A stretch of 64,000 nt of DNA from Amyelois transitella. Lineage: Eukaryota > Arthropoda > Insecta > Lepidoptera > Pyralidae. The first letter of the stretch is position 1. Every line of letters starts with the position of its first letter. A program made the position numbers and the translations under genes. The stretch lies in the NCBI RefSeq assembly GCF_032362555.1, contig NC_083531.1, positions 2,480,001-2,544,000 on the forward strand. The letters run 5' to 3'. The notes below the pieces were generated by a model that searched no databases, was not told where the DNA came from, and saw nothing but the letters and a program-made list of their open reading frames with translations. Positions 15,887 to 39,960 of the stretch are shown here, piece after piece.

Positions 15887-15925
15887 TATAAAAGTTGGTC
15901 AAATGTAGAAATAGTATAGTCAAGT
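15887..15925 (+). promoter_or_regulatory. Core promoter of sericin-like gene 2 (TATA plus Inr)
   Basis: TATAAAA at 15887-15893 has the same local context as in gene 1 (tcggtataaaag versus gcggtataaaag). An initiator-like TCAAGT lies at 15920. The TATA-to-A spacing is 35 bp, against 34 bp in gene 1. The predicted leader is only 45 nt before the ATG at 15967. Confidence 0.6.
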
Positions 15926-15966: not shown

Positions 15967-18900
15967 ATGCGTTTTATTGCAACTATTTCTTGGATCTGCG
16001 CCCTCAGTGTGAGTACATAAATAATTACTTACTAGCTGTGCCCGCGACTTCGTCCGCGTGGAATAATTGTTTTGGGCATCATTGAAGCCCTCAAGGATGA
16101 ATAATTTTCCCCTTTTTTTCACATATTCCATTTTTGCAGCGTGATGTTATATAGCATAAAGCCTTCCTCGATAAATGGTCTATTGAACACAAAAAGAATT
16201 TTTCAATTCGAAACAGTAGTTCCTGAGATAAGCGCGTTCAAACAAACTCTCCAGCTTTATAATATTAGTATAGATTAATTAAGTACAGAAGGCAATGCCT
16301 TTCTTTACATTTTCCTGTCGTGGGCCTACTGGAAGCAATTTCTCTAGAAATAAATAGTGCCCTTGTGCATTAGATACCTAATTTCTCTTTAGTTTAATTT
16401 CTTTTCTTCCTTTTTTCTTGATGTACATAAATATATAAATAAACATTTTTCCACATTCTTCAGACCACTCCATCTAGGAAAGACCCATGGATGTCGTTAA
16501 AGGCGACTAAGGGAAAGGCTTATAAACTTGAGATTCTCCTTTTAGATGATGGGCTAGCATTCATTAAGCCAAACAGCTGAACGTGGCCTATCAATCTTTT
16601 CAAGACTGTTAGCTCTGTCTACCTCGCAAGGGAGATAGACTTGATTATGTATGTATGTACAAGATAAAGAAAATCTACCATAAATATGTAATACCTAATA
16701 CGTAAAATTTTTGATGATTGAGTAAATAAAATACTATGTCATTTTTCTTTCTTTTTCTTACAGGTTCTGAGCGTCAAAGCAGCGCCAAACCAAGGTTATA
16801 TTATTTCTTTATCTCTCTTATCATCTTCTGATGCCGTGTGGTTCCCGGCACCAATACAAAAAAGAATAGGACCACTCCATCTCTTTCCCATGGATGTCGT
16901 AAAAGGCGACTAAGGAATAGGCTTACAAACTTGGGATTCTTTTTTAGGCGATGGGCTAGCAACCTGTCACTATTTGAATCACAATTCTATCATTAAGCCA
17001 AATATCTGAACGTGGCAATTCAGTCTTTTCAAGACTGTTGGCTCTGTCTACCCCGCAAGGGATATAGATGTGACCATATGTATGTATGTATCATCTTCTG
17101 AGTCTGTTCACGGTCCTTGGTTGGTCTTCAGAGCCCGGGGGGTCCACATCACATAATATATAATTATCTAATAGTTAAAGAGTACCTATGTGTAGCGGGA
17201 GCGATGATTCGGCTCGACCGCCACCAAAGGGAAGATCTTCCGCCAGGCTAGGTGTTATGCCTGGGGAACCGCGCGACAGACGATGTTGTGTCGGAGGTTG
17301 TATATATAGCTCCAATCCGTGAAATCTTTACTTGCGCGTTTTAGGTTTTTCACTGTTAATGACTGATAGCGTCGCGTGATGTAATTTTTTTATTTTTTTG
17401 TGATATAGAATTCGCTACATATGCATGTAATTTTGAGAAGGAAAGATATATTTGATCAGTTTACAATAAAAAAAAAATCTGAAAATTGTAAAAGCATTTG
17501 TCTCTAAGCACAGCAAAAAGTCGCGAATTAAATTATTTCAATTCCAGTTCTATAATATTATCAGATAATTTTTTGATATACTTTATGTCAGTTTCATTGA
17601 GAGTAATTTGATCTCACACTTAGGAATAAATGCTCATTTGGATACCCACAGCTAAATATACAGGCACCTTTTTTTAAGACATTTAAGTTATATTCTTATC
17701 ATTTAAAATATTTATTTAGCCTTAAATATTTCTCATTTTTCTCTAATTTTTCTCTATTCTCTCTCTATCTCTCATTTTTCTCTAATAATCTTTCGTTTTT
17801 TCAGTGAACAACGAAAACTTCCATAACTACCAGCAATCTGGTCAGGAGCGAAGTTATAACAACTATGAGAACGAGCAGAGATCCAATCTTCTGTCATGTA
17901 AGTACATACATGTAATATATCTTTATCCTTTAAAAAAAAGGTAACTAAGGGATAGGCTTATAAACTTGGGATTCTTCTTAAAGGCGATGGGCTAGCAACC
18001 TGTCACTACTAGTATTTGAATCTCAATTCTATCATCAAGCCAAAAGCTGAAGGTGGCTTATCAGTCTTTTCAAGACTGTTGGCTCTGTTTTCAAATTTAA
18101 ATTCAAAATGTATTTATCCCTTACGGGGTAGACAGAGCCAGCAGTCTCGACAAGACTGAAAATCCAAGCAAAGATTTTTGTAAAACGAACAATCTCTTTA
18201 ACTTCTGTTCCTGCGAGAATTTTGGGAAATCCTCCCTTAGTCTTCAAATAGGGTTCAAATCTATATAGATTTGAACCTTCATACCAAATTTTAAGTTTCT
18301 AGAAACTCTGAACCACATTGGTCTAGACCAAGCGGTTTGAACTATGTTACTAAATAATACTTAGTATCATTTTCTCAATCTCATCTTTGCATATTCCCAG
18401 TTGCACCCATCACAATTTCCTATCGGACCTAAGGTCCGCTTTGAGGTTTCTCTCTGCACTTTTTCTGATCACCAGCACCCTTAGTTTAAAGAACATTAAC
18501 TCTCATATAACTTTAAGTCACCCAGGTTTGTTTTTTGGCCTGCCTCTTATATTATTATATCTAGACCCGACGAAGCAGTCATGGCATTTTTAACCGACTT
18601 CAAAAAATTAAGCTCTCCATTCAAATGTATATTTTTTTCTAAGATAACCTTTACGTTTGACCTCAATCTGCCTGGTAGTGTGAGATGAGGCCTAAGGTGA
18701 TGCACACAAGCTGAAAAAGTGTCTATTCACCCTTGCCTTAAAAATTGGTTAGGAATTTTTAAGGCTAGAGTGAATAGGCACTATTCTATGTATCGGGGAA
18801 GAGAGATGCCGGGAGGGAACTACTGTCAGCGACCGCAAGGAGTTTTAGTTTTCTTCCTCCTGACTTTAGTTCCGACTGCATCCTCACCACTCTGCAGAGG

Positions 18901-21900
18901 AGCCCGGGGTATGCCTTGGACCATGGACCCTGGATTGGGCGAGTCAGGTTTTTACACGAAGCGATTCCCATCTGACCTCCGCAATCATTGCAGAGAAATC
19001 TAACCCATACAGGATCATAGCTAAGATCAGTTGCCTGATAGTGACTTACCATAATGATTATAATTTTTCTTTCAAATTTACAGCAAACTACTATCAGAAC
19101 AGCGGAGTTAATAATCAAGTTAATAATCAAAATAATGCACTGAACTACCAAAATATAGTTGCTAATAACGAAGCTACAAATCAAAATAACGCTGCTAATT
19201 ATCAAAGCATCGTTGCTAATAACGAGGCTTACAATCAGAATAACGCAGCGAACTACCAAAACGTTGTAGCAAATAACCAAAATAACTTGGTTAATAACCA
19301 GAATATAGTAGCTGCTAACGAAGCTGTTAACCAAAATAACGCAGTTAATTATCAAAGCATAGTTTCTAATAACGCTATAAATCAAAATAACGCAGCTAAT
19401 TATCAAAGCATAGTTGCTAACAACGAGGCTTACAACAAGAATAACGCTGCTAATTATCAAACCATTGCAGCTAATAACGACGCTTATAACCACAATAATG
19501 GACTTAATTATCAAAATATAGCAGCTGCTAACGAAGCTAACTATGAAAATGTAGCTAACAGTGTCAATTACCAAAATGCAGCTGTGAACTACAGGAATAT
19601 AGCCCGACAAGTCGAATCTGACCAAAACATCTACCAGCAAAGGGCTAATGTCATCAACGGTAAGTTATTTCTTTCATTCATCATTATATTTTTATTTATT
19701 TCTTTGAGGTAACAAACAGTCGTGTACGTGTCCTTAAGTAACTAAAACATAAATCATATATTATTGACCTACAATTTCATTTCTGCGCATGTACATAGAA
19801 AAGTGGCAGTTAATACTGTGTGACCTGTAATAAACTTTCAATGATTAAAGTTATATAGATCAACTATTATGCGGCTATATACCTATTGCTCAAAGAAATA
19901 GTTATTTCTTTCACAAATATCGACAATTAAAGTTTTAATAATTCAAAGACTACCAATAAAGATTTAACTTGTTTCATTCATGTAATCAAAGAGATGAAAA
20001 TACCTAATGGGAACAATGTTATTCCAGCCAATAGCAACGAAGCATCTCAATACAGAGACGTGATCCGTCAAGCTGAACAACAGCAGGCGATAGCTGAAGA
20101 AAGAGCAGCTGAACAGAGAGTCAACGCTGTTTCAGGTATAAACAAAGAAGAATTAGTCATTCATTCACTCACATTCACATCTGAAGTGGCTAAAATAACT
20201 TTTGAACCAAACGCTATTTGATTGAATGCCGACATGTAAGAAAGATGACTGACACCGCCCTGGTTTAAAGATTTTAAATATACATACATATATACATATG
20301 GTCACGTCTATATACCTTGCGGGGTAGACAGAGCCAACAGTCTTGAAAAGACAGAATGGCCAAGTTCCGCTATTAGGCTTAATGATAGAATTGAGATTCA
20401 AACAGTGACAGGTTGCTAACCCAGCGCCTAAAAAAGAATCCCAAGTTTGTAAGCTTATCCCTTAGTCGTCTTTTACGACATCCATGGGAAAGAGATGGAG
20501 TGGTCCTATTCTATTTTGTATTAGTGCCGGGAACCACACGGCACATGTCTTTAAAACCAAACGCTATTTGATTGAATGCCCACATGTAAGAAAGACGACT
20601 GACACCGCATAACCTAAACCTGGATTAAGGATTTTTTATATAATTTATTTAAAACACAACAGGAAAAGAGGTTTAATAAATATTCCTTATTATTAACAAG
20701 TTCTATGTTTAAAAGAAGCAATTTGATTGGCCGACCGCTAAATTAGGTGCATCGATTACAGGGATTTTCGTGTTTAAATAACTTACAATTGATTTCAGTG
20801 AACAACAACGAAGCTGCGCAATGGCAGAATGTAGCGAGACAGGCGGAGATAGCAAGAAACAATTACGGACAAACTGAAAATGTTTATCCAGTCAACGAGC
20901 AGGTCAACACTGTGTCAAGTAAGAAATTGATAAATTTAACAAGTTAATTTTTTAACAGAGAGATAAATAGATAATTAGAGAAAGACACTTTATGGCACCA
21001 AGAAAAAATATATGTATATCAATAACAATAAATGGTTCCCGGCACCAATATAAAAAAAGAATAGGACCACTCCATCTCGTTCCCATGGATGTCGTAAAAG
21101 GCCACTAAGGGATGGGCTTATAAACTTGGGATTCTTCTTCTAGGCGATGGGCAAGCAACCCGTCACTATTTGAATCTCAATTCTATCATTAAGCCAAATA
21201 GCTGAACGTGGCCTATCAGTCTTTTCAAGACTGTTGGCTCTGTCTACCCCGTATGGGATAAAGACGTGGTCGTATGTATGTATGTACACTTTATTGCACC
21301 AAGAAAATATATCAATAACTTTTACCTCTCTCTACAAGTCAAAAAAAAACTGTAGAATAATTTGTTTTTCTTTTTTATTTTTAGTTTCACACGTCTATAT
21401 TCCTTGCGGGTTATATGTTTATACATCATATCGCACCCCCGGTGCGACACTGTCACTTATGCAAAAACACAATTTAAAAGAGAAGCATTTATAACTTAAC
21501 ATCCCATAACATTGTCATATTTGAAGATTTTTACAAGATGAATAGCTTATACTGCGGTAACTATGTGTACTACAAACGTAACGTTATCGCACCAAGTTAA
21601 GGGAAACATTAGGAGAGTTATTACATATGTTACTCATTTTTGCAATTTTTGCATAAGTGACAGTGTCGCATATGTATGATGACGTGATTATATGTATGTA
21701 TGTGTAAAGAAAGATGTCGTCAAAAATTTTAAACCGGTACTGCATTTAAAAATACAAACCATTTGAGCCGCTAAGCTAGTTTATGCAAATCCTGTTTGCC
21801 ACAAAGGTAGGCAGAGGATTTCCACTTGCTACGATCGCTACATACATACCTCGCTTCCTCCCCACTCATTATTGTTTTCATTCAAACTAAACGGTAAATT

Positions 21901-24900
21901 AAAAGCCGGATTATTTTGTTTTTTGGCGGCATCCATCTTTACAATTTAAGTAAGGTCGATTGAACTCTCAAATTGTTTTATTACAGGCCCGAGGATTATC
22001 GAAGTACCAATTGGAAGTAAGTTTTATATTTTTCTATTTTATATTTAAGTCTGGCTGGCTTAAAAATAATTAAAAATATTAGGTTCGCTTACATAGGTAA
22101 TTAGATATGTGAACTAAAAAAAAGTAACACAATAAAGAAAAGACAAAACAAATATGCCCCAGAAATTTCACAGCCAAAAATAAATTTCATTTTCAAGCAT
22201 AACATATTAGTGAAATCCTACCAAATGTACAATTTGGTTTTGCAGATTTGGCTGAGTTTGAGCTCAAATCTCATCTAAGTAAAGAAAACAATAGGGCTGT
22301 TATAAGTACAGAAATTGTACCATTATTTGGTGAGTAGACCGCCTTAAAGTGGTTTCGGTCTTAAATCTATACTAATATTATAAAGCTGAAGAGTTTTTTT
22401 GTTTGTTTGTTTGAACGCGCTAATCTCAGGAACTACTGGTTCAAATTGAAATTGGGTTGAAATTCTTTTTGTGTTGAATAGACCATTTATTGAGAAAGGC
22501 TTTAAGCTTTACGAGTATAACATCACGCTTCAACTATTAGGAACGAAGAAATAATGAAAAATATGAAAAAAACGGGGAAAATTATTCACCCGTGATGGCT
22601 TTAATTATGTCCAAAATAACTATTCCACGCAGACGGAGTCGCGGGCACATCTAGAGTTCAAATAAAATAAATAAATTTTAAACACAAGACGTGCCTATAA
22701 AGGTTCCTCTCTTTCCTCATTGCCTACTTCAATAAAACTATAATTTGGCAAAATATAACAATTTGATGTGAATTAACTTAATGCCGTGTGGTTCCCGGCG
22801 CCAATAAAAAGAAGAAAAGGAACACTTCATCACGATCCTATGGAACTCGTAAAAGGCGACTAAGAGTTGGGCCTTTAATCTTGGGATTCTTCTTGTAGGT
22901 GATGGGCTAGCAACCTGTCACTATTTGAATCTCAATTCTATCATTAAGCCAAATAGCTGAACGTGGAATATCAGTATTTTCAAGACTGTTGTCTCTGTCT
23001 ATACTGCAAAGGATATAGATGTGATTATATGTATTCACGTCGACTATTATAAAGAGGAGAGGACCCAACAATGTTCCCTGAGGCGACCCTGATAGAATCT
23101 ATAACCATCTAGTAGAATAACATTAAAGTACCACCGAAATATAATATCCTCAATTTCCAACAAAGTTTAACATCTTTGTGAATGTTGTACGTGCGACTGT
23201 TTATCGAAAATTGCATTAGTTAACTTGTAGTTTGTATGCATCATGTACAAATTAGGAAAGACTTGTTTGAATTAGGGCTTCCAATCCCGCAGCCTGAATT
23301 CAATCTCGGTATTTGCGGGATTACAAATTTTAAATCCCGCGGGATCTCGGTATTTGCGGGATCCCGCATATTGAAAATATTCATATATAAATAAGGCAAC
23401 TAAAACAATGAATTAATCAACTAACTCCGCATTTATTTAAATATTATTATAAGTATGAGATCAATCAAATTACTTCGTTTATTCTTCACAAATACAGCAA
23501 CAAATACTGAAAAAACATGAAATCTATCTTCTTCATAAAATACACCAAAATAATAAAATATCAACTAAAAAACTAATTTCAACTGAAAATAAAAGTTGGT
23601 TTATCTATTTAGTTTGTCAGCTAAAGCTTTTAATTGTAAATGTTTGCGAAGGAAACACAACATATCTAAACTGTCATCTGCCAAACTGCTGCGTATTTTA
23701 GAAGCAATATAGCCAGCAGCAGAAAATGCCCTTTCGGCTTCCACACTTGTCGGCGGTATTCCTTTTAAGGCTTTATATGTAAATGTAAGATATTTTCCCA
23801 TTAGATGCGTGTGGGTTTCCATTGATTTCAACCTTAAAGAATTGAAAATTTGTTATTGAATCTTATATGGTCCTTTCAATCAGGGTTTACTTTGTAATTG
23901 GTTTATATATTGTGATATTTATTACAGATAGCGGTTCTTCAGCTTCAAGTTCAGCATCTTCCCAATCCAGTGCATCATCAGGTATAAGATCTTAAACTTT
24001 CTCTTTCTTTTCTGTTATTTTTTTTATTTATTTAATTTCATTTGGGAAATATACAGTTATATATGTTATACAAAATCTTATTTAGTGTATTTAAGACCAT
24101 TTATATGTATTCGCGTAAGTGAAGCTATTTCTATGCATTCCTCCGTCATTATGATTCGTTATCATTAAACCTTTAACTAATTATTATTCCTCCGGAAGAA
24201 AGGTCGTAGATTGTCGTAAATTTGGTTTTTCATCATACACTTTGTATCCAGACAAAATGTTTTATAGATAGCTAGCTAACTTTGTTGTGTACTTAATATT
24301 AAAGGTATTATCTTATAACTATATGTAAATGCCTTGTGGTTCCCGGCACCAATACAAAAAAGAATAGGACCACTCCATCTCTTTCCTATGGATGTCGTAA
24401 AAGGCGACGTAGGGATAGGCTTAAAAACTTCTTCTTTTAGGCCTTGGGCTAGCAACCTGTCACTATTTGAATCTCAATTCTATCATTAAGCCAAATAGCT
24501 GAACGTGGCCATTCAGTCTTTTCAAGACTGTTGGCTCTGTCTACCCCGCAAGGGATATAGACGTGACCATATGTATGAATGTATGTATGCTATATGTAAA
24601 TGAATCATACAATTCACTAACATTTCACACCTAAAATATATATGTATCCATTGAGCATTCGTTCTGACCTACAAAAAGGTTAAATAATACGAACCTTTTG
24701 TCCAGGATCGAACGTCCAACAGTACCAGCTACCAGTGCAATATCAACCACAAAACGAAATCGTTCGTCAGGAAACAATTGTTGAACAACCAAACGTTAGA
24801 GAAGTTGAAACCAGACCCGGATCTCAAGTGATCGTAGTTGGGGGAGGGCAGAACGTAAAGGTCATTGAAGGATCAAGAGCTCAAGTTGTATCTGGGGCAG

Positions 24901-27900: not shown

Positions 27901-30900
27901 GCGAAATGCCATTTTTTTTAACACACAGAAAAAACTTTGCAAACAACAAAAAACATAATAAAATTATCGCCCGGTCAGACAAAAGCTTTATTAAAAAAAA
28001 TGTTTTATGTATTCCCGAATGAAAGCGGGTTGACTAAGCAAATATACAAAGGAAGTGTGAATGGGACTGTTGGTAAATCGGAGATGTTCTAGCAAAAGTT
28101 TTGTTTAAGAGTACCCGAAACCGACGAGCTTGCACGAAGAGAGTTATGAATGTGGATGAAGCGAAAGAAGTGTGCAGAGATCGAGGCAAGTGAAAAGATG
28201 TGGTCTCTGCATACCCCTCCGGGTAAGAGGCGTGATTTATGTATATATTCCTGAAATTCCTACAAAATGCCGTGTGGTTCCCGGCACCATTACAAAAAGG
28301 AATAGGACCATTCCATCTCTTTCCCACGGATGTTGAAAAAGGCGACTAAGGGATAGGCTTATGAACTTAGAATTCCTCTTTTAGGCGATGTGCTAGCAAC
28401 CTGTCACTATTTGAATCTAAATTCTATCACTGAGCCAAACAGCTGAGCGTGGCCTATCAGTCTTTTCAAGACTGGTGGCTCTATTTACAACGCTAGGGAT
28501 ATAGACGTGATCATATATATGTATGGATTCCTACAAAAATTATTCGATTTGTGTCTCTTAGGGAATTTCGAGAAGTGAGTAAGTCAGACTCCTGTTAAAT
28601 ATTTTGATTTCACTGTTGCAGCATCAGCTATTGCGACAGCCGAACAATTGATCACCATTTTGGAGCAGATCATCAGCACGGCAGGTACGTAACATTGGAA
28701 GAGGTTTGATAATACATACGTAATACATAAAAATCACGCCTCTTTCCCGGAGGGGTAGGCAGAGACTACCTCTTTCCACTTGCCACGATCTCTGCATATT
28801 AGCTTCGCTTCATCCACATTCATAACTCTCAAATGGTTTGTATTTATAGTTACGGTTTAACATTTTTGACGACATATTTCTTTACACATACATATAATCA
28901 CGTCTATATCCCTTGCGGGGTAGACAGAGCCGACAGTCTTAAAAAGACTAATAGGCCATTTTAATTTCACAGCAAATAAAATACTTATACCATAATAAGT
29001 AACATCGGTGTTATTGGCATTACGTATAATACATTCGTGTTATTGACATAACATGCTCGTAATAATCCTAACTAAACTCAAAAATTAAATTTTAAATGGA
29101 TGTCGTAAATGGCGACTAAGGAATGCGCTTATATACTTGGGATTCTTCTATTAGGCGATGGGCTAGCAACCTGTCAATATTTGGATCTCAATTCTATCAT
29201 TAAGCCAGACAGCTGAACGTGGCCTATCAGTCTTTTCAAGCCTGTTGGCTCCATCTACCCCGCAAGGGATATAAACGCGACTAATGTATGTATATAAAAA
29301 TTAAAAAAAATAGTTTTTCCCGATCTTACCTCTGGTCCAAATTACCCTTAATACCGGCAGCATTGCAACGCTGTAAAGCTAAGAAAATTGTTTGGATCGG
29401 ATGTGAACTGGTAGGGCGAAATCCACCACTAATCTGAGTTCACCAGTGCACTGTGAGATTGAAATTACTCTTCAACAATTTACTTGTGAGATTGAAATTA
29501 CTCTTCAACAATTTACTTGTGAGATTGAAATTACTCTTCAACAATTTACTTGTGAGATTGAAATTACTCTTCAACAATTTACTTGTGAGATTGAAATTAC
29601 TCTTCAACAATTTACTTGTGAGATTGAAATTACTCCTCAACAATTTACTCGATTTATTTGACAGCGGCTGCCTCTGCTTCGTCAGCCTCATCGTCATCAG
29701 GTTCTTCTGCGTCATCTGCGTCATCTGCGTCATCTGCGTCAACTGCGTCATCAGCTACCACTGCCCCAGTTACAACTGCCCCAGCACCAGCGGCTCCAGG
29801 CTCTACTGCAACATCTGGTAATTACTTGTACAATTGAATGCCGTGTGGTTCCCGGCACCGATTTAAAAATAATAGGACCACTCCATCTCGTTGCCATGGA
29901 TGTGAATAGGCGACTAAGGGATAGGATTATAAACTTGGGATTCTTCTTGTAGGCGATGGGCTAGCAACCTGTCACTATTTGAATCTCAATTCTATCATAA
30001 AGCCAAACAGCTGAACGTTGCCTATCAGTATTTTCAAGAAAAAGAAGAGACTGACAGGCCACGTTCAGCTGTTTGGCTTTATGATAGAATTGAGATTCAA
30101 ATAGTGACAGGTTGCTAGCTCATCGCTTATAATAAGAATCCCAAGTTTAAGAGCCTATCCCTTAGTCACCTCTTACGACATCTACGGGAAATGAGACGGA
30201 GTGGTCCTATTCTATTCTATTGTCCACTATATATTTATACTAGAGGCCGCCCGCGACTTCGTCCGCATGGAAACCCTATCAATCCCGCGGGAACTCTGGG
30301 ATAAAAAGTAGCCTATGTGTTATTCTGGGTCTTCAGCTACCTACATACCAAATTTCATGGTAATCGGTTCAGTAGTTTTTGCGTGAAAGAGTAACAAACA
30401 TCCATACAAACTTTCGCCTTTATAATAGTAGTAGGATATTTAATATTTCATCAAATCAATTCAGGGTCATCGTCAACTTCCACCACAACTGTGACCAGCG
30501 GTCCAGGAGTTCCATCAGGACCATCTTCTGGAAGCTCAGCATCGAGCGGTTCTTCATCCACAGGTATTTCTGAACTATCAACAGTCCATACACACATACA
30601 ATCATGTCTATATCCCTTGCCGGGGAGACCGAGCCTTGAGAGACTTGAAAAGACTGAAAATCCACGTTCAGCTGTGTGGTTTAATGATGAGAATTGAAAT
30701 TTAAAAAGTACAACAGCTGAACGTGGCCTATCAGTATTTTCAATACTGTTGGCTCTGTCTACCCCGCAAGGGATATAGACGAGACCATATGTATGTATGC
30801 TTTAATAACGCAATTTCTAAATATCATTATATATTTTAGTCAGTTCGGTAACAAAGAGAATTGTCAGGTTTTAATTTATACGTATTTTTAACTTTATTTT

Positions 30901-33900
30901 TATAACAGGAGCATCCAACAATGGTGCAGGTGCTTCAGGCTCGTCCGGATCAGGATCATCTGCGTCAAGTGGTTCATCTTCAACAGGTATTACTTACATT
31001 CAATTATAAAATCACGCCTCTTTCGTAAAATTAACATAATATATTTACCATGTGTTATGTACCTTGCCAATAAATTTAGAAATTTCGGTGGGCACGGGGT
31101 TAAATATAAGCTGTTTGTCGTACTAAAGGTTCTGCTAGATTATCACACATGAATTATGTCAGGTTTGTATTGTATACGTGTTTTTAAGTCTATTTTTATA
31201 ACAGGAGCATCCAACAATGGTGCAGGCTCGTCCGGATCAGGATCCTCTGCGTCAAGTGGATCATCTTCAACAGGTATTACATACATATATAAAATCACGC
31301 CTCTTTCGTTAAATTAACATAATATATTTACCATGTGTTATGTATGTTGCCAATAAATTTAGACATTTCGGTAGGCTCAAGGTTAAACATTAGCTATTAG
31401 TCGAATTTAAAGTTCTGCAGGATATACAGACATGAATAATGCCAGAAATGTATTGTAAACTAATTTTAAACTTCATTTTATAACAGGAGCATCAAATAAT
31501 GGTGCAGGTGCTTCAGGCTCGTCTGCATCAGGATCATCTGCGTCAAGTGGATCATCTTCAACAGGTTTATGTTGCTTAATTGTTTTTAATTCACGTTTTT
31601 TTTTTTGTTACTCTTTATTTTTTTAAGTATACACAACTAATTTATACTAATTTTAATCATGATTTTCAATTAATCACAACTATTACAAATTCTGTAGTCT
31701 TCCTATTCTTGGTGGGTTGGTAAGGAATTTCATACCTTGTATACACATACATACATACATATGCTCACGTCTATATCCCTTGCGGGGTAGACAGAGCCAA
31801 CAGTCTTGAAAAGACTGACGTTCAGCTATTTGGCTTAATGATAGAATCACTATCTGAATCTTAATTCTATCATTAAGCCAAATAGCTGAACGTGGCCATT
31901 TAGTCTTTTCAAGACTGTTGGCTCTGTCTAACCCGCAATGGATATAGACGTGACCATATGTATGTATGTATGTAATTTAGTCGATTAAGTCGGCAAGAGA
32001 ATTGTCAGGTTTATATCGTCAACGTATTTTTAACTTTATTTTTCAAACAGGCGCATCAAACAATGGTGCAGGTGCTTCAGGATCATCTGCATCAGGATCC
32101 TCTGCGTCAAGTGGTTCATCTTCAACAGGTATTACATACATACATTTATAAAATCACGCCTCTTTCGTAAAATTAACATAATATATTTACCATGTGTTAT
32201 GTATGTTGCCAATAAATTTAGAAATTTCGTTAGTCACGGGGTTAAACATTAGCTATTTGTCGAATTTAAGGTTCTGCAGGATATACAGACATGAATTATG
32301 TCAGGTTTGTATTGTAAAATAATTTAAAACAGGAGCATCAAACAATGGTGCAGGCGCAGCAGGCTCGTCCGGCTCAAGTTCATCTTCATCAAGTGGATCA
32401 TCTTCAACAGGTATTACTTACATACGAGTACATATATAAAATCACGCCTCTTTCGAAGGAGTAAGCAAAATCTACATCTTTTGTCGCAAAATTTTCCCAA
32501 TGTATTTACCAATAAAATGTAGTCACTTTGGTCGGCAGGGGATAAAACGTTTACTGTTTGTTGGATTTAAGTTCCTACTGGATATGTAGACATGAATTAT
32601 GTCAGGTTTGTATTGTTTACGTATTTTAAAGCCTATTTTTAAAACAGGAGCATCCAATAATGGCGGAGCTGCTTCAGGCTCGTCCGACTCAGGATCATCT
32701 TCGTCAAGTGGATCATCTTCAACAGGTATTACTTCTTCCTCCTGGCTTTAATACCGGTTACATCCTCACCTCTCCGGAGAGGAGCCCGGGTATACCTTTG
32801 ACCATGGATCCTGGATTGGGTGAGTCAGGTTTTTACACGAAGGTAACTTCAACAGGTATTACATACATTCATATATTTGAAAATTGTCAAAAATATTCTC
32901 AAGGTATGTATTTTGCTAATAAAATTAAGGCACTTCGGCCGGCAGGGGATTAAACAATTACTGTTTGTTAAATTTAAGATCCTGCTGGATATACAGACAT
33001 GAATTATGTCAGGAGTGTATTGTAAACTAATTTTAAACTTCATTTTATAACAGGAGCATCCAACAATGGTGCAGGTGCTTCAGGATCATCTGCATCAGGA
33101 TCCTCTGCGTCAAGTGGTTCATCTTCAACAGGTATTACATACATACATATACAAAATCATGCCTCTTTCGAAGGGGTTAGCAGAATCTACATCTTTTGTC
33201 GAATTTTTTTACAATTTAGGTATTTACCAATAAAATTTTGTCACTTTGGTCGGCAGGGGATTATACATTAGCTGTTTGTCGTGCTAAAGGTTCTGCTAGA
33301 TTATCACACATGAATTATGTCAGGTTTGTATTGTATACGTGTTTTAAAGTCTATTTTTATAACAGGAGCATCCAATAATGGTGGAGGTGCTTCAGGCTCG
33401 TCCGGATCAGGTTCATCTGCGTCAAGTGGATCATCTTCAACAGGTATTATATACATACATAGGTATATAAAATCACGCCTCTGTCGAAGGGGTAAGCAGA
33501 ATCTACATCTATTGCCGAATTTTTTTTACAATTTAGGTATTTACCAATAAAATTTTGTCACTTTGGTCGGCAGGGGATTAAACGTTAACTGTTTGTTGGA
33601 TTTAAGCTCCTACTGGATATACAGACATGAATTATGCCAGGTTTGTATTGCAAACGTATTTTAAAGTATATTTTTATAACAGGAGCATCCAATAATGGCG
33701 GAAGTGCTTCAGGCTCATCCGGATCAGGATCATCTGCGTCAAGTGGTTCATCTTCAACAGGTACCTTATAAAACCTTTTATTGCTTCTTAATTTTAAAGA
33801 TCTAGCTGCATTTTTACTTGCTGCTTCTTTAAAACAATAATCAATTTCTCAAATTGATACAGACATTGTCCTATTAATCTGAATCATGCTCCGTAAAATA

Positions 33901-36900
33901 ATGGTTCTATGCCGTATTGTACTGCTTTTTTCTTAGTTAAATTATAATTTTCTTACCTTGTAAATATTTTATAAATTCATTATTATTTTAGCCATATCTA
34001 ACAATGGTGGAGGCGCCCCAGTCTCATCAGGATCCTCAGCGTCAAGTGGTTCATCTTCAACAGGTATATTTATTAATAGTTTTTGTTGCTTTTTTATCCC
34101 TTGGGAATAATAATCAGTTTTTTGCTGGATTAGGTAAGAAATGTCTTACCTTACTCCTCTTGGCATTAGTTCTGGTTACATCTTCACCATTCCGGAGAGG
34201 AGTCAGGGATGCGTCTTTATGACCATGATCTAGGATTAGGTGAGTCAGTTTTACACGAAGCGTCTTACATCGACCTCCGTAACCTTTGCAGGAGAACCTA
34301 ACTCATATTAGATCATGGTTACTCATTCAGGGAACTGAACTCTTAAAATTGAATGTTCATGATAATTTTTTACCTGTTTATGTTTAAAAAATTTCATTAT
34401 TATTTCAGCCACATCTACCAATAGTGGAGTAGCTCCAGCGTCATCGGGTTCAGGATCCTCTGCATCCAGTAGTTCATCATCGACAGGTAACATTATAGTA
34501 TATACAGAATTTTTATTTATTACTAAGTGGTATGTACTTCTTTAAAAATAAACTTATCTATAAGAACATTAATACTTGCTTTGCAAGCAATATACGCTTT
34601 AATTGATATATGTATATGCGTAATTAATGCACAAAGAATATTCGTATATATGTCTCGCCTCAAAAATTCATGACAATTTTCATTCTTCGGCCAAAAGAAG
34701 GGATTTTCGTTATAATTGTTGTTTATTTGTTGAAGGTACTTACTGCGTTTTCGATAATGGTTTAGAACAATTTTCTTTACGTTGGTTTATAAAAAATAAT
34801 TTATTTCAGCTGCATCCAACAATGGTGGGCGCGCTCCAGCTTCGTCAGTATCTGGATCTTCGGCGTCAAGTGGTTCATCTTCAACAGGTATTATTATAAG
34901 TTAATTGACTAATTTGTACTTCAATATTGTGTTTCTTGTTAACTACTAACTACTTTAAAATTTAATTCAACTAAGAATTTTGTCAAGAACTTTAATCTGA
35001 ACTAGTTTTTGCGCACAACTTCGCACGCGTGGAAATTTGTATTACGGTACAGAATTCTGGATTGGATATGTCGGTTATTTACACGAACTGACTCCCGGTT
35101 GACCTCCGCAAAGTTTTTTGGGGATCCTCAATATTATAATAAAAATCTAAATTATGCTTTGTCAAATTATGAGCCAAAGTTTATTGCTAATAGGAAAATT
35201 ATCTTTTATTAAAAATACAGTGAAATTTGTCGAAACTTATATTATTCGTATGTTTAAAACATAATATTAATTAACCAAAATAAAACTTTTTAAAGAATTA
35301 CTGAACTGAATTTAAAATTAATTTATAGTTTTAATATTACTTTAAATATATTTAAAACAAAATTTGTTTAGGCATAAAACTATATTAACTTGTTTTAAAC
35401 ATTAACTTTTTCAGCCACATCTAATAATAATGGTGGAAGTACTCCAGTCTCATCAGGATCCTCTGCATCAAGTGGTTCATCATCAACAGGTATGATCATG
35501 TTTGATATCTTATTCTTTATATTATTGTTGTTATTTCTTTAGAATTATTAATGATCAATATAATGTCTAACCTATGATTTTCATTTAATCACAACAGTCT
35601 TATTGTTTTTGTTGTTTTAGTGACTTCTTTACCCTTTCATTTGTTTAAAGAAATCATTATTACAGTGCGAAAATGATAGATAATAAATTGTGATAATAAT
35701 GACCAAAATACATTGCCAATAAAACCTTCATTTTGCAAATAAATTAAGACAGTTTAGTTAACAAGGGAATTATACATTTAGAATTGTTAAGATCGTTTGG
35801 TATTTTAAACTTTATTATTGTAACAGCCACGTCCAACAGTGGTGGAGTTGCTCCAGCGTCATCAGGATCAGGATCCTCTGCATCAAGTGGTTCGTCTTCA
35901 ACAGGTATTGCTTAACATCATTCAACAGGTATCTTTAACTATATCCTTCATTAGTTAATTGACGTTAAAATTGGTATTCTCTTTTTATTTGTCAAAAAAT
36001 AATCTTTACTTCTAGTTTTGTCAAATCAATTGATCATTATCGTCAAATAATTGTTACATTAACCTTATTGATAATTAATTTATCTTGACCTGAATCATGC
36101 TCCGTCAGATAACTAATATGACCATTATTCCTACAAGAGAATTTTTTTGAACTTTTATACATACATACACGTATACACACATATAAACACGTCTATATCC
36201 CAGGGCCAACAGTCTTGAAAAGACTGATAGGCCACGTTCAGATTCAATTAAATTAAATTCTTAAAGCCTAATGGCTTGAAGATAGAAATGAGATTCAAAT
36301 AGTGACAGGTTGCTAGCCCATCGCTTAAAAGAAGAATCCCAAATTTATAAGCCTATCCCTTAGTCGCCTTTTACGACATCCGTGGGAAAGGGATGGAGTT
36401 GTCCTATTCTTTTTTCTATTGGTGCCGGGAACCACACGGCTTTTATTATTGGTGTTATTACCCTTCTTTCGTATGTTTTAAAGATTATTGTTATTACAGC
36501 CACATCCAACAGCGGCGGAGGTGCTCCAACATCATCAGGATCAGGTTCCTCAGCATCAAGTGGTTCATCTTCAGCAGGTATTGCTTTACATCTATTTTCT
36601 CATCCCTTAGATGAATGACGTGGCATGAGTTTACAAACAAATTTTTTATTCAAAATTCATGATTTTCCCTTCGTGGTGGTCGAGTCTAAAACATCGCTCC
36701 CTCTTCATCTGATTGTTGCAAAATTGATTGTTTCAGCTACATCAGGTAGCGGCTCACCTGCTCCAAGTGCTTCAGGTTCATCATCAGGCTCATCTACTAC
36801 CACAGGTATTTATCAAATAACCTCATTGTTCATAACTATATGTTTTAATAGAATAGGTAGAATATTTTCAAAATTGGATACAAGTTATCACTTATTGACC

Positions 36901-39090
36901 TCACATCACTTAAATCTAATTATAACTACTACCGCTTCCGAAGCGCATGTGTAAAAGAAGCGGCGGAACAAACTACAGTGCAGCATTTTCACCGGACGTC
37001 AATATACAAATATAAATCTCTTTAATCTAAATCGTGGACAAATGCACATTGTCTACATTTAAAAAAACATGAATGAATACAAAACTAATTTTATCTCCTG
37101 GTGATTGCTCTAATTGTGTTCTAATACATACATATACATATGGTCACGTCTATATCCCTTGCGGGGTAGACAGAGCCAACAGGCTTGAAAAGACTGAATG
37201 GCCACGTTCAGCTATTTGGCTTAATGATAGAATTGAGATTCAAATAGCGATAGGTTGGCAGCCCATCGCCTAACTAAGAATCCCAAGTTTGTAAGCCTAT
37301 CCCTTAGTCGCCTTTTACGACATCCATGGGAAAGAGATGGAGTGGTCCTATTCTTTTTTGTATTGGTGCCGGGAGCCACACGGCAATGTGTTCTAATAAA
37401 TTAATATTATTTGTTCCAGTTACATCTACAAGGGGCCGACCAGGTTCTTCAGCATCAAGCTCTTCAGGAGCATCAGGTATGACAACACCCTAGGTATATT
37501 TATCTAATTTTTTTGTTTACTCTTCGCTTATAATTTTTTGTTATCACTAGGCACATTAGTTTGAATACTAACCGATGCTTTTACGGTGAGGGAAAATATC
37601 GTGAGGAAACTTGTACTGAGGCAATTGGATGTGTAACCATGATCTATCCTATACGGGTTAGGTTCACCTGCAAAGGTTGCGGAGGTCGGACGGGAGTCGC
37701 TTCGTACAAAAACCTGACTCACCCAATCCAGGATCCATGGTCAAAGTCATACCCCAGGTTCCTACCTGGGGTATGACTTTGACCTGGATTGGAGAGGATT
37801 CGAGAGTGGTGAGGATGCAACTGTGACAAAAGCCAGGAAGAAGAAGACTAAGCTAATATACTTGGGATTCCTCTTGTAGGCGATGGGCTATCAAACTGTC
37901 GCTATTCGAATCTCAATTCTATCATTAAACCAAACGTCTGAACGTGGCCTGTCAGTCTTTTCGCCACTGTTGGCTCTGCCTACCCCGTTAGGGATATAGA
38001 CGTGATTATATGAATCTATGAAAATAAATATGACTACATTCAAACTGAATGTGTATATTTCTTTCAGCAACATGTCGATGTTTTTGTTCCCTGCACCAAT
38101 ACAAGAAATAATAGGACCGCTCCATCTCTTTCCCATGGACGTCGTAAAAGGCGACGTAGGGATAAGCTTACAAACTTAGGATTCATTTTAAGCGATGGAT
38201 TAGCAACCTGTCGCTATTTGAATCTCAATTCTATCATTGAGCCAAATAGCTGAACGTGGCCATTCAGTCTTTTCAAGACTGTTGGCTCTGTCTACCCCGC
38301 AAGGGATACAGACGTGACCATATGTATGTATTTTTATAATTTAAATAATATGTTTGGTACTTTACCATACCACACGGCACTAACAGCCCTTTATTTAATT
38401 TTAACCGACTTCGAAAAGGAGGATGTCTATTGGAGACGGTTCTCTTTTTACAAAAGTCATTCATTTCAGCCGCTTCGGGTAGCAGCAACTCCGGCGCAGC
38501 CAACAACAGTGCTTCATCATCAAGCGCTAGTTCTTCAGCTGCTAGTGGTAAATCACTTAGACAAACATTTAATCACGTTTATATCCTTTGCGGGGTACAC
38601 AGAGGAAATAGTTTTAAAAAGACTGAATGGCCACGTTCAACTGTTCGGCTTAATGATAGAATTGAGATTCAAATAGTGACAGGTTGCTAGCCCATCGCTT
38701 AAAAGAAGAATCCCAAGTTTATAAGCCTGTCCCTTAGTCGCCTTTTACGACGTCCATGGGAACTAGATGGAGTGTTCTTTTTTTATTGGTGCCGGGAACC
38801 ACACGGCACTATTCTGAATACTGAATTTCTTTTTTTTTCATTCTGAATACGAATAATATATATATATAGATATATATACTTTATTAGCCTATCACTTAGT
38901 GACCTGTTACGACATCCATTTTCTTGTCATTAAAACGTGTAAGTTCGCGCCAAAATGTTTATGCAATTTTTCTTTTACAGCATCCTCCACCGCTGTGGGA
39001 GGACCACTCCCACGAGGCAGAATCTGCGTTTGCTACGACGCTGTATCTGAAATCCCTACCAATGTCCGAAGATCTATCAGATTGTATTAA
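15967..39090 (+). CDS. Sericin-like silk protein 2, 36 coding exons, 1199 aa
   Basis: Exons: 15967-16008, 16764-16794, 17805-17897, 19084-19659, 20028-20135, 20799-20918, 21987-22016, 22246-22329, 23928-23981, 24706-25053, 25498-25557, 25904-25972, 26272-26367, 26895-27002, 28622-28684, 29665-29817, 30465-30563, 30909-30986, 31205-31273, 31487-31564, 32051-32128, 32333-32410, 32648-32725, 33054-33131, 33366-33443, 33683-33760, 33992-34063, 34409-34486, 34810-34887, 35415-35489, 35827-35904, 36500-36577, 36737-36805, 37420-37476, 38470-38547, 38981-39090. The sum is 3600 nt with no stop, and every junction after the first is phase 1. The signal peptide is MRFIATISWICALS plus VLSVKA. Residues 25-323 are Asn/Gln-rich (ANNEAYNQNNAANYQ-type repeats). 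Residues 324-495 include PRIIEVPIG and VAPAPVSTVS repeats. Residues 496-711 are Ala/Thr/Ser/Pro-rich with one hydrophobic helix (AEQLITILEQII). Residues 712-1118 are sixteen Ser/Gly-rich repeat exons. The end contains ICVCYDAVSEIPTNVRR, homologous to gene 1. Role inferred: silk adhesive coat. Single small exons could be missed or skipped. Confidence 0.85.
16032..16274 (-). mobile_element. Non-autonomous Helitron in intron 1
   Basis: Read on the minus strand it starts TCTATACTAATATTATAA and ends with a hairpin-forming GACGAAGTCGCGGGCACAGC then CTAG, the terminal signature of Helitrons (5' TC, 3' hairpin plus CTRR). It has the 'gaacgcgcttatctcaggaa'-type body shared with five other copies. Confidence 0.7.
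16466..16665 (+). repeat. Family A repeat, 5' truncated
   Basis: Starts 'accactccatctaggaaag' and ends 'gattatgtatgtatgta'. It is in intron 1 of sericin-like gene 2, about 100 bp before exon 2. Confidence 0.7.
16832..17088 (+). repeat. Family A repeat, full length with target duplication
   Basis: Complete unit from TGCCGTGTGGTTCCCGGCAC to TATGTATG, about 257 bp. It is flanked by a perfect 13-bp direct repeat TATCATCTTCTGA at 16819-16831 and 17089-17101. This defines the ends of the family and shows it moves by retroposition. Confidence 0.85.
17185..17402 (-). repeat. Repeat family E, uninterrupted copy
   Basis: It runs from 'gagcgatgattcggctcgac' through 'gaagatcttccgcc' and 'ggaaccgcgcgacag' to 'gcgtcgcgtgatg'. 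It is the inverted counterpart of the sequence flanking the hAT element at 57.1/61.7 kb and of 51040-51430. A TATA-like 'gtatatatag' and moderate GC content suggest an LTR or promoter-bearing repeat, but I could not define its ends. Confidence 0.5.
17930..18165. repeat. Family A fragments, inverted pair
   Basis: A plus-oriented part ('taactaagggataggcttat' to 'aagactgttggctctg') is followed by a minus-oriented part ('ttatcccttacggggtagac'). Both lie in intron 3. Confidence 0.6.
18719..18781. repeat. Fold-back sequence
   Basis: Two arms of about 27 bp (gtgtctattcacccttgcct ... and ... aaggctagagtgaataggca) are inverted with few mismatches around a 7-bp loop. It lies in intron 3, next to a family C repeat, and may be part of a longer interspersed element. 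Confidence 0.55.
18845..19043 (+). repeat. Repeat family C
   Basis: Shared features: 'ttcttcctcctgactttag', 'tgcatcctcaccactc', 'gaccctggattgggcgag', 'tttttacacgaagcg' and 'gacctccgcaa'. It occurs six or more times in the window. It ends about 40 bp before exon 4 of sericin-like gene 2. Confidence 0.65.
19084..19659 (+). repeat. Asn/Gln-rich coding repeats, exon 4 of sericin-like gene 2
   Basis: The exon encodes about ten degenerate 18-19-residue units of the type NQNNAANYQSIVANNEA. The DNA repeats (aataacgctgctaattatca and variants) are less uniform than those of gene 1, so the array is older or less homogenised. The antisense strand has a long open frame only because Asn/Gln codons give no stops there. 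Confidence 0.85.
20281..20545 (-). repeat. Family A repeat between duplicated flanks
   Basis: Inverted copy 'gtcacgtctatataccttgc' to 'gccgggaaccacacggcac'. The sequence on each side (20209-20259 and 20556-20608, starting aaccaaacgctatttgattg) is duplicated over about 52 bp, much longer than a usual target duplication. Confidence 0.75.
21029..21285 (+). repeat. Family A repeat
   Basis: Copy from 'tggttcccggcaccaatata' to 'gtatgtatgtaca' in intron 6. Confidence 0.75.
22366..22654 (+). mobile_element. Non-autonomous Helitron in intron 8
   Basis: Starts TCTATACTAATATTATAAAG and ends GGAGTCGCGGGCACATCTAG with a 3' hairpin. It lies directly after exon 8 (donor at 22330). No Rep/helicase gene is present. 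Confidence 0.7.
22780..23038 (+). repeat. Family A repeat
   Basis: Full-length copy 'tgccgtgtggttcccggcgc' to 'gtgattatatgtat' in intron 8. Confidence 0.75.
23270..23860 (-). mobile_element. Truncated hAT element in intron 8
   Basis: The left end has repeated 'gcgggatc(t/c)c' and 'tcggtatttgcgggat' motifs. The minus-strand frame 23601-23831 encodes the hAT C-terminal dimerisation signature, including GIPPTSVEAERAFSAAG and SSLADDSLDMLCFLRKHLQ. The catalytic core is missing. Confidence 0.6.
23601..23831 (-). pseudogene. hAT transposase C-terminal (dimerisation) fragment
   Basis: About 76 residues containing the motif P-x-S-V-E-A-E-R-A-F-S-A-A-G, the conserved hATC core, and the leucine-rich end (LCFLRKHLQLKAL). 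The upstream RNase H-like core is absent. It sits in an intron of sericin-like gene 2 in the opposite orientation and has no role in that protein. Confidence 0.65.
24331..24589 (+). repeat. Family A repeat with target duplication
   Basis: Full-length copy. The 12-13-bp direct repeat CTATATGTAAATG is present at 24319-24331 and 24590-24602. This is independent proof of the element ends seen at 16832. Confidence 0.8.
25137..25218 (-). repeat. Family D fragment
   Basis: 'cctggcgaaaggccaagtca' and 'gatgaatgtggatgaagc' to 'agaagtatgcagtgatg' is a diverged inverted D copy in intron 10. Confidence 0.5.
27121..27303 (+). repeat. Family D repeat, long copy
   Basis: 'acatacatacataaaatcac' through 'cctccgcttcatccacattc' to 'gaccctttaccaggacg' in intron 14. 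Confidence 0.7.
27304..27480. repeat. Repeat family F
   Basis: 'aatagaatagatttattttc', 'tattgacgtcacatcac', 'gaagaagcggcggaac' and 'cattttcatcggacgtc'. Related copies are at 36846-37060 and 49262-49520. It may be a LINE tail, but the class is unknown. Confidence 0.55.
27505..27758 (-). repeat. Family A repeat
   Basis: Inverted copy 'acgtacatacatacatataa' to 'gccgggaaccacacggcac' in intron 14. Confidence 0.75.
28085..28240 (-). repeat. Family D repeat
   Basis: Inverted copy 'gagtacccgaaaccgacgag' to 'taagaggcgtgatttatgta' in intron 14. It is followed within 30 bp by a family A copy. Confidence 0.7.
28266..28525 (+). repeat. Family A repeat
   Basis: Full-length copy 'atgccgtgtggttcccggca' to 'gatcatatatatgtatg', ending about 95 bp before exon 15. 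Confidence 0.75.
28716..28832 (+). repeat. Family D repeat, truncated
   Basis: 'aaaaatcacgcctctttcccggagg' to 'cttcatccacattcataac' just after exon 15. Confidence 0.65.
28885..29292. repeat. Two opposed family A fragments
   Basis: A minus-oriented piece (28885-28965) and a plus-oriented piece (29095-29292) are separated by about 130 bp of A/T-rich DNA. Confidence 0.6.
29450..29650. repeat. 33-bp minisatellite, six copies
   Basis: The unit is TGTGAGATTGAAATTACTCT followed by TCAACAATTTACT, repeated six times and nearly identical (one T-to-C in the last copy). It ends about 15 bp before the acceptor of exon 16, so it replaces the usual upstream intron sequence. Because 33 is a multiple of three, open frames on both strands here are artefacts. 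Confidence 0.9.
29836..30225. repeat. Inverted pair of family A repeats
   Basis: A plus copy (29836-30038) runs head-on into a minus copy (30046-30225) with only a few bases of spacer (aagaaaaagaagag). The arms could pair over roughly 180 nt in the transcript. The pair is in intron 16. Confidence 0.8.
30240..30436 (-). mobile_element. Non-autonomous Helitron-like element, second family
   Basis: It starts CTAG plus 'gccgcccgcgacttcgtccg' and ends 'cctttataatagtagtagga'. The middle, 'gtagcctatgtgttattctg' and 'aatcggttcagtagtttttg', is the widespread moth element of this kind. It ends 28 bp before exon 17. Confidence 0.65.
30581..30800. repeat. Inverted pair of family A fragments
   Basis: Minus piece 30581-30713 (catgtctatatcccttgcc...) and plus piece 30714-30800 (cagctgaacgtggcctatca... 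to tatgtatg) in intron 17. Confidence 0.65.
31745..31977. repeat. Long hairpin of two family A copies
   Basis: Minus copy 31745-31851 (catacatacatatgctcacg...) and plus copy 31857-31977 (...gaccatatgtatgtatgta) are arranged as a near-perfect palindrome, with arms over 100 nt. It lies in intron 20 inside the tandem exon array. Confidence 0.8.
32731..32845 (+). repeat. Family C fragment inside a duplicated intron
   Basis: 'cttcttcctcctggctttaa' to 'gtcaggtttttacacgaagg'. The array sequence 'acttcaacaggtatta' resumes directly after it, giving a false exon-end copy at 32845-32860. It is a later insertion into one unit. Confidence 0.65.
34138..34335 (+). repeat. Family C repeat
   Basis: 'cttggcattagttctggtta' to 'atattagatcatggttactc' in intron 27. 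Confidence 0.6.
35044..35125 (+). repeat. Family C fragment
   Basis: 'tggattggatatgtcggtta' and 'ttacacgaactgactcccgg' then 'gacctccgcaaag', diverged, in intron 29. Confidence 0.45.
36165..36440 (-). repeat. Family A repeat, internally altered
   Basis: Inverted copy in intron 31 with a 35-bp insertion (caattaaattaaattcttaa) after the 'ggccacgttcag' block. It ends 'gccgggaaccacacggc'. Confidence 0.7.
36846..37060. repeat. Repeat family F
   Basis: 'aataggtagaatattttcaa', 'gaagaagcggcggaac' and 'cattttcaccggacgtc', close to the copy at 27304. It is in intron 33. Confidence 0.55.
37125..37385 (-). repeat. Family A repeat
   Basis: Full inverted copy 'acatacatatacatatggtc' to 'gccgggagccacacggcaa', ending about 35 bp before exon 34. 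Confidence 0.75.
37555..37850 (-). repeat. Family C repeat with internal palindrome
   Basis: Inverted C copy in intron 34. At 37739-37784 it holds a perfect 21-bp inverted repeat (GGTCAAAGTCATACCCCAGG plus T) with a 4-base loop, created by a local fold-back duplication of the element. Confidence 0.65.
37850..38010 (+). repeat. Family A fragment
   Basis: 'taagctaatatacttgggat' to 'gacgtgattatatgaat' in intron 34. Confidence 0.6.
38075..38335 (+). repeat. Family A repeat
   Basis: 'tttttgttccctgcaccaat' to 'gaccatatgtatgtat', diverged at the 5' end, in intron 34. Confidence 0.7.
38560..38808 (-). repeat. Family A repeat
   Basis: Inverted copy directly after exon 35 ('aatcacgtttatatcctttg' to 'gccgggaaccacacggcac'). 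Confidence 0.75.
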
Positions 39091-39340
39091 CAAAACGCAA
39101 CTATAATATTAGTAGGTAGAGAGTAATATAATATGTTATAAGTTCTCTTTGGTAACAAAACGCACGGATGGTAAAAAAATAATACGCTGGTCTTACTCTA
39201 AGAAACTGATTTTTTTTAACGCAGTTTGTATGTGCCGCTCCGGTATTTAATGTCCTGTGTTCAAAGAAGTGATTTAAATTGTCGAAAAAGGATAACTTTA
39301 AGTTATCTCAATAACTTTGAACCATTTCACCCTATCTCAT

Positions 39341-39346
39341 AATAAA
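39341..39346 (+). terminator. Polyadenylation signal AATAAA
   Basis: AATAAA lies 250 nt after the stop of sericin-like gene 2. It is the first clear signal in the 3' flank. Confidence 0.45.
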
Positions 39347-39349
39347 ATA

Positions 39350-39960
39350 ATTTAATCACCTTTTAAATTGAAGTTCACTAAATCAAAATTATATCCAGCG
39401 TATTTATCCAAATCAGTGCATTTTAGAGTTCTTTATTTAAAATCCTACACAATTATGTATTTTTTTAATATAAATAATATATTTATGGCATTCATTTTTT
39501 GTTTTATTTTTATTGTCTTTTTAAAAAACCATCCTACCTATTTTTTTTATAAACATTCATACCTTTGGTGTTGAAGTTGTTTCGAGCTTATTTCTAATAT
39601 ATAAAATATAAATAACTGAACATCTCAATCTTGACCTGACTTTTTTTGATTCTTTTAATTAAACTAATATAATGTATTTATAATAACCAAAAAGTAGTCT
39701 AAAGCATCTGGGTGCTTCAGCCAGGTGATTTAAGTGGAACAATTCTGCTCTAAGATGTAAACTATAGTTTGTATACTTCGATCAAATCAAATGGAATATA
39801 TCTTTATAAACTACTTACATTTAAATAGGTACCATAAAACAACTACACTTGCTGAAATTTTGTTTGTTTCAAACCTTGTAAAATTAGGATAAGGTTAAAA
39901 TATTCAGGAATTAGCATAGGTAGGTGACAAGCGCTAAGTTCACTTTTTTATATTACTGAA
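39350..39960. other. 3' flank, no gene recognised
   Basis: A/T-rich DNA after sericin-like gene 2, without a convincing reading frame or a known repeat. Confidence 0.5.

Follow-up and report, generated by a model that had tools for sequence, protein, structure and literature searches.

Pyralid moths are described as carrying Ser1A and Ser1B side by side, both with CXCX ends (PMC9745057, PMC12661448). Ser1 of other moths has 9 exons in Bombyx mori, one of them a long repeat exon (PMC8228281), and 8 in Yponomeuta (PMC9684489). The window considered here is a 64,000-nucleotide stretch of Amyelois transitella DNA (contig NC_083531.1, positions 2,480,001 to 2,544,000, forward strand), and contains a predicted gene of 36 exons (15967-39090, plus strand) together with a five-exon sibling upstream of it. 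The larger gene very probably encodes a silk glue protein of the Ser1 sericin type in a silk-spinning lepidopteran, and its uniform reading phase would derive from a history of duplicating 1-1 exons (those with phase-1 introns on both sides). Growth of secreted and silk genes by exon copying is known; as far as the consulted parts of the literature go, and this scope holds for every published system compared below, the variant here would be the Ser1 end joined to the growth mode of mucin 1.

The locus resembles the Ser1A/Ser1B pair and B. mori Ser1 in that two short exons at its start encode the signal peptide, a feature noted for Ser1 and Ser2 (PMC5124675), but its 36 exons, gained via exon copying, differ from the short exon series of B. 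mori and Yponomeuta Ser1. Yponomeuta mucin 1 also has many exons (32; PMC9684489), whereas its product carries a three-cysteine C-terminal motif in place of the two-cysteine CVCY of Ser1 found here; identity as a mucin-1 gene was ruled out by that two-cysteine end and by the lack of a CXCXCX motif. B. mori sericin 4 is comparable in exon number, with 34 (PMC8228281). No account of the intron phase of sericins was found in a narrow check of the open-access literature, where, among the papers listed, "same phase" wording occurred only in ones that, by their titles, concern chemosensory genes.

Direct reading of region 15500-39400, with all exon borders set by script, gave a gene with its ATG at 15967, a TAA ending at 39090, and a predicted coding length of 3600 nt including the TAA (1199 aa) with no internal stop. 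The scripted borders reproduced the exon count and coordinates of the preliminary description of this locus, which had also taken the divisibility of the total by three as support for the model; that support is weak, because the chosen phases force divisibility. The first junction is phase 0, and all 34 later ones (junctions 2-35) are phase 1. The title of that description held every internal exon to be 1-1, which is correct for 33 of 34 (exons 3-35, all multiples of three) and incorrect for exon 2 (31 nt, 0-1); its body text, unlike the title, excepted the first two exons. Intron lengths (n = 35) divide 13/8/14 among the residue classes modulo three, and follow no multiple-of-three rule. A strict-score splice scan missed most of the array exons. 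In the list below, all exons except 1, 2, 7 and 8 were also returned by a phase-blind gene finder (described after the list) at a penalty of -5.

15887..15892, plus strand: TATAAA, 80 bp upstream of the start codon
15967..16008, plus strand: exon 1, 42 nt, ends phase 0; MRFIATISWICALS, signal peptide start
16764..16794, plus strand: exon 2, 31 nt, phase 0 to 1; signal peptide end, ...VLSVKAAPNQ; missed by the finder at -5
17805..17897, plus strand: exon 3, 1-1; donor base T, giving stop-making joins to exons 10, 18-20 and 22-26
19084..19659, plus strand: exon 4, 1-1; 576 nt; Asn/Gln-rich internal repeats of about 54 nt
20028..20135, plus strand: exon 5, 1-1
20799..20918, plus strand: exon 6, 1-1
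21987..22016, plus strand: exon 7, 1-1; 30 nt; less certain, missed by the finder at -5
22246..22329, plus strand: exon 8, 1-1; less certain, missed by the finder at -5
23928..23981, plus strand: exon 9, 1-1; Ser/Ala
24706..25053, plus strand: exon 10, 1-1; 30-nt VAPAPVST repeats
25498..25557, plus strand: exon 11, 1-1; CAGCAG acceptor
25904..25972, plus strand: exon 12, 1-1; Thr-rich
26272..26367, plus strand: exon 13, 1-1
26895..27002, plus strand: exon 14, 1-1
28622..28684, plus strand: exon 15, 1-1
29665..29817, plus strand: exon 16, 1-1
30465..30563, plus strand: exon 17, 1-1
30909..30986, plus strand: exon 18, 1-1; young array (ASNNGAGASGSS... repeat)
31205..31273, plus strand: exon 19, 1-1; young array, 69 nt
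31487..31564, plus strand: exon 20, 1-1; young array
32051..32128, plus strand: exon 21, 1-1; young array
32333..32410, plus strand: exon 22, 1-1; young array
32648..32725, plus strand: exon 23, 1-1; young array; donor doubled by a repeat insertion just 3'
33054..33131, plus strand: exon 24, 1-1; young array
33366..33443, plus strand: exon 25, 1-1; young array
33683..33760, plus strand: exon 26, 1-1; young array
33992..34063, plus strand: exon 27, 1-1; older array, 72 nt
34409..34486, plus strand: exon 28, 1-1; older array
34810..34887, plus strand: exon 29, 1-1; older array
35415..35489, plus strand: exon 30, 1-1; older array, 75 nt
35827..35904, plus strand: exon 31, 1-1; older array
36500..36577, plus strand: exon 32, 1-1; older array
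36737..36805, plus strand: exon 33, 1-1
37420..37476, plus strand: exon 34, 1-1
38470..38547, plus strand: exon 35, 1-1
38981..39090, plus strand: exon 36, terminal, enters phase 1; ...GRICVCYDAVSEIPTNVRRSIRLY and TAA
39341..39346, plus strand: AATAAA poly(A) signal, the sole AATAAA/ATTAAA in 39091-39500
8292..12739, plus strand: sibling sericin gene; exons 8292-8333, 8655-8676, 8758-9186, 9562-10947, 11337-12739; phases 0,1,1,1; ends KICVCYDDLHDIPGNVRAQVGA

Several frames stay open in the repetitive Ser codons, and the sites had been picked by eye, so that uniform phase could in principle be an artefact of fitting splice sites. A Viterbi gene finder that allowed any phase makes this extremely improbable; its codon model had been trained on the gene next upstream, and its splice consensus was the textbook one. 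At a penalty of -5 it returned 34 exons, with 32 of the 36 model exons exact and all 33 acceptors in phase 1; exons 1, 2, 7 and 8 were missed, and two non-model exons were added (17188-17251 and 18870-18908). Exact exons numbered 33, 32, 32 and 31 at penalties of -4, -5, -6 and -7, nearly all in phase 1, the phase-0 acceptors at -4 (2 of 37) being a point on the side of artefact. With the training stretches slightly trimmed, a rerun (in which exact exon matches were not counted) scored the gene region at 637.8 and gave 33 exons with 32 of 32 acceptors in phase 1, whereas equal-length controls remained near zero (10.0 for the downstream plus strand, 21.7 for the minus strand of the gene region, 5.1 for the downstream minus strand). 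The codon-position signal, which serves as a separate and independent test, is likewise specific to the model frame. In the 12 of 15 array exons that have 78 nt (exons 19, 27 and 30 were excluded for their length), the ratio of nonsynonymous to synonymous differences (pN/pS) is 0.29 in the model frame, as against 1.65 and 2.74 in the alternative frames, values that are effect sizes rather than probabilities since the array copy pairs are non-independent; variable columns by codon positions 1/2/3 number 9/7/23. By these measures the array exons evolve as coding sequence in the model frame only, under purifying selection there. Also against an artefact, the L-fibroin gene on another contig of the same genome reads, by eye, phases 2, 0 and 0 at three introns and 2 at the last visible donor. 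For the exons recovered by the finder, artefact was held refuted.

The predicted protein has the make-up of a secreted silk component. Exons 1 and 2 (42 and 31 nt) encode a signal peptide, as judged by eye, and Ser makes up 27.3% of the 1199 aa, which run from an Asn/Gln-rich part (exons 3-6) through Val/Pro/Thr-rich pieces and serine-rich repeats (mainly exons 16-35) to GRICVCYDAVSEIPTNVRRSIRLY, with a CVCY motif 17 residues from the C-terminus; in Yponomeuta Ser1 the two-cysteine motif likewise lies 17 residues from the end (PMC9684489). Ser1-type features found here are the CXCX (CVCY) end, the signal peptide on two short first exons and the serine-rich repeats. Searching the genome with the 35 C-terminal residues found two places, this gene and, weakly, the sibling (E 0.063, 53% identity), and a search with exons 5-8 found only its own locus; in both, scoring was confined to the top candidates of an initial pass. 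A glycine-codon pattern search of the genome gave eight loci, which play no part in the present analysis. The L-fibroin Pfam family gave four matches on another contig of the genome, and none in 14 control genomes. That the gene is a silk gene, as first proposed, is supported by the signal peptide, the Ser content, the CVCY end, the adjacent sibling sericin and the L-fibroin exons in the same genome. Assignment to a Ser1-type pair follows from the CVCY ends, the adjacent sibling, and the side-by-side Ser1A and Ser1B of pyralid moths, which have CXCX ends; which of the two is Ser1A and which Ser1B cannot be told.

The composition changes sharply after exon 8, and exons 7-8 are the weakest of the model, and this could suggest that an Asn/Gln-rich gene (exons 1-8) was fused in the model to a serine-rich one (exons 9-36). 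Phase 1 continues across the change of composition, and no second short hydrophobic first exon lies within the region on the plus strand: a filter for such exons (ATG, 33-51 nt, phase 0, donor GTAAG or GTGAG), which would miss first exons of any other kind, returned three on the plus strand of the window; each gene has one, with no further one in the interior of the 36-exon gene. Within the limits of that filter the fusion was rejected, and it is considered quite improbable.

The upstream sibling (8292-12739) bears directly on the origin of the phase pattern. It has a 42-nt phase-0 exon 1, a 22-nt exon 2 and phase 1 at all later junctions, and its product is 33.3% Ser over 1093 aa, with CVCY followed by 16 residues. 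Its growth is by repeats inside exon 4, of 129 bp with a higher-order unit of 384 bp (9678-10786). Since a five-exon gene has the same phases, the pattern is not special to the 36-exon gene, and the phase most likely predates the exon array. Uniform phase 1 is thus a trait of the gene pair, better read as inherited structure than as isoform design.

Length change by exon duplication, also proposed in the preliminary description, was supported by the likeness among exons 18-32, in which stretches of up to three exons recur; whole-exon duplication, the growth mode of mucin 1, is found in the 36-exon gene. Within exons 18-26 (the young array) likeness is 0.90 in the exons, 0.77 in the 120 bp of 5' flank and 0.66 in the 100 bp of 3' flank, and within exons 27-32 (the older array) it is 0.83 in the exons and 0.63 and 0.62 in the flanks, over a baseline of 0.55 from 60 random pairs. 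Self-comparison showed repeats of about three exons each (30587-31566 / 31750-32727, 76% over 1031; 32003-32728 / 33007-33763, 81% over 764; 30862-31566 / 33007-33762, 78% over 765), as well as repeats shifted by a single unit, e.g., 32884-33451 / 33196-33770 (84% over 576). In the tree of units, exons 18 and 21 pair with support of 1.0, exons 23 and 26 with 0.98, and exons 20 and 22 with 0.74; the last pairing breaks the series of three-exon blocks, and therefore single-unit copying or gene conversion would also be involved. The spider flagelliform silk gene has repeated exon-intron units too (PMC3522626, PMC2576457), a likeness in gene layout, and its introns are near-identical and more homogenised than its exons, whereas here exon likeness exceeds that of the flanks. 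Schistosome polymorphic mucins also have repeated exon-intron units (PMC2576457). Six near-identical 33-bp repeats (99% matches) at 29452-29649 lie in an intron and end 15 bp before exon 16. In the interval 32717-32862, just 3' of exon 23, lies a 114-bp dispersed repeat with 13 more full or partial matches in 264 kb; the 16-bp target-site duplication on either side of it takes in the exon 23 end and GT donor, so that the 5' splice site is doubled, and read-through from exon 23 to the second donor meets stops.

Taken together, these findings suggest the following history for a Ser1-type sericin gene. The founding phase-1 intron sits directly after the signal peptide and is followed by 1-1 exons, and the gene would then have been lengthened by copying whole 1-1 exons with their introns, possibly by unequal crossing-over; the frame stays intact under such copying because copied exon-intron units carry their phase automatically. 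For human and mouse genes it was proposed that residues with GNN codons near the signal-peptide cleavage site favour a phase-1 intron, with later growth through 1-1 exons (PMC7259759). In agreement with that G-split view, the split codon starts with G at 30 of 34 junctions here, and the junction residues are mostly Ala (15), Gly (11) and Val (3), together 29 of 34. The likeness to the 1-1 modular secreted proteins of that study lies in a phase-1 intron that comes after the signal peptide and leads into 1-1 exons; the difference is that their exons usually code for folded domains, whereas those here code for short repeats with no Pfam match in the parts scanned. The product would be a soluble serine-rich coating protein, directed by its signal peptide to the secretory pathway and probably expressed in the middle silk gland, with the C-terminal CVCY unit probably forming disulphide bonds.

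Several points weigh against this reading. The Ser1 assignment relies on a short C-terminal motif and on pairing with the sibling, and Pfam, at E up to 1, gave no match in the first 570 or last 35 residues. The repeats lie across exons 18-32 rather than in one large exon, although the latter is the usual Ser1 layout rather than a stated rule (PMC9684489). The unit tree, judged from sequence, is without a clean history of three-exon blocks, and exons 7 (30 nt) and 8 (84 nt) have splice sites and an open frame as their only basis.

A functional explanation of the phase pattern would be that the array exons have been selected as a bank of splicing cassettes, in which skipping or inclusion adjusts glue length and stickiness to developmental stage or gland region. 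The initial proposal that any internal exon could be skipped stands for exons 3-35, which are frame-neutral; skipping exon 2 shifts the frame, and of the 595 forward joins (phase-1 donors of exons 2-35 with acceptors of exons 3-36) 586 are stop-free while 9, all from the exon 3 donor, create a stop. Exon skipping is possible on these grounds. Also in favour, donors in the array have G at +5 in 0 of 9 in exons 18-26 and 1 of 6 in exons 27-32, compared with 6 of 8 in exons 1-8. Alternative splicing has been published for B. mori Ser1 and Ser2 (PMC5124675), and is suspected for some Ephestia kuehniella silk genes from extra northern bands (PMC9745057). However, total donor matches are about equal despite the missing G (6.1 of 9 in exons 18-26, 6.5 in exons 27-32, 6.4 in exons 1-8), because array donors carry CAG on the exon side, and the five-exon sibling shares the phases, so that phase 1 needs no such function. 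Selection for a cassette bank appears unlikely, and inherited structure with growth by copying of 1-1 exons is the preferred reading. NAGNAG acceptors, which could drop one residue in-frame, occur at 9 exons (exon 11 at 25495-25500, exons 18-20 and 22-26); 8 of the 9 have GAG after the CAG, which makes the second site a weak one.

In the wider neighbourhood, a serine-rich frame scan of 264 kb around the window (40-residue stretches in which Ser numbers 8 or above and S, G, A, N, Q, T together reach 75%) found segments only in these two genes; silk genes of a different composition would escape such a scan. A predicted three-exon gene at 2943-5270, with a 36-nt phase-0 exon 1 followed by phase 1 and a likely signal peptide, encodes a product that is rich in acidic residues and has CPCSC midway along its length, for which Pfam gave only DUF7088 (E 0.12, below cut-off); it is possibly a distant or an unrelated secreted neighbour. 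A 156-residue open frame at 1668-2135, with a hydrophobic start after an AG acceptor and no Pfam match over cut-off, may be the terminal exon of a further small secreted protein. At 58001-59188 there is a hAT-like transposase Pfam match (E 4e-05, below the curated cut-off), and Pfam scans of the other neighbours gave weak matches below cut-off or none.

In summary, the locus may hold two adjacent sister sericin genes that share one phase-1 frame but lengthened by opposite routes, in-exon repeats in one and whole-exon copying in the other; a more speculative and rather doubtful extension of this picture is that the latter route, with array donors lacking the +5 G, allows glue length to be tuned by splicing within one animal. 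The pair would offer a natural side-by-side comparison of two routes of lengthening, with start layout, end motif and phase in common, and it accords with the idea that the frame for later exon copying in secreted genes is set by a phase-1 intron after the signal peptide. If it is true that splicing varies over the array, the length of the silk glue would be tunable without mutation.
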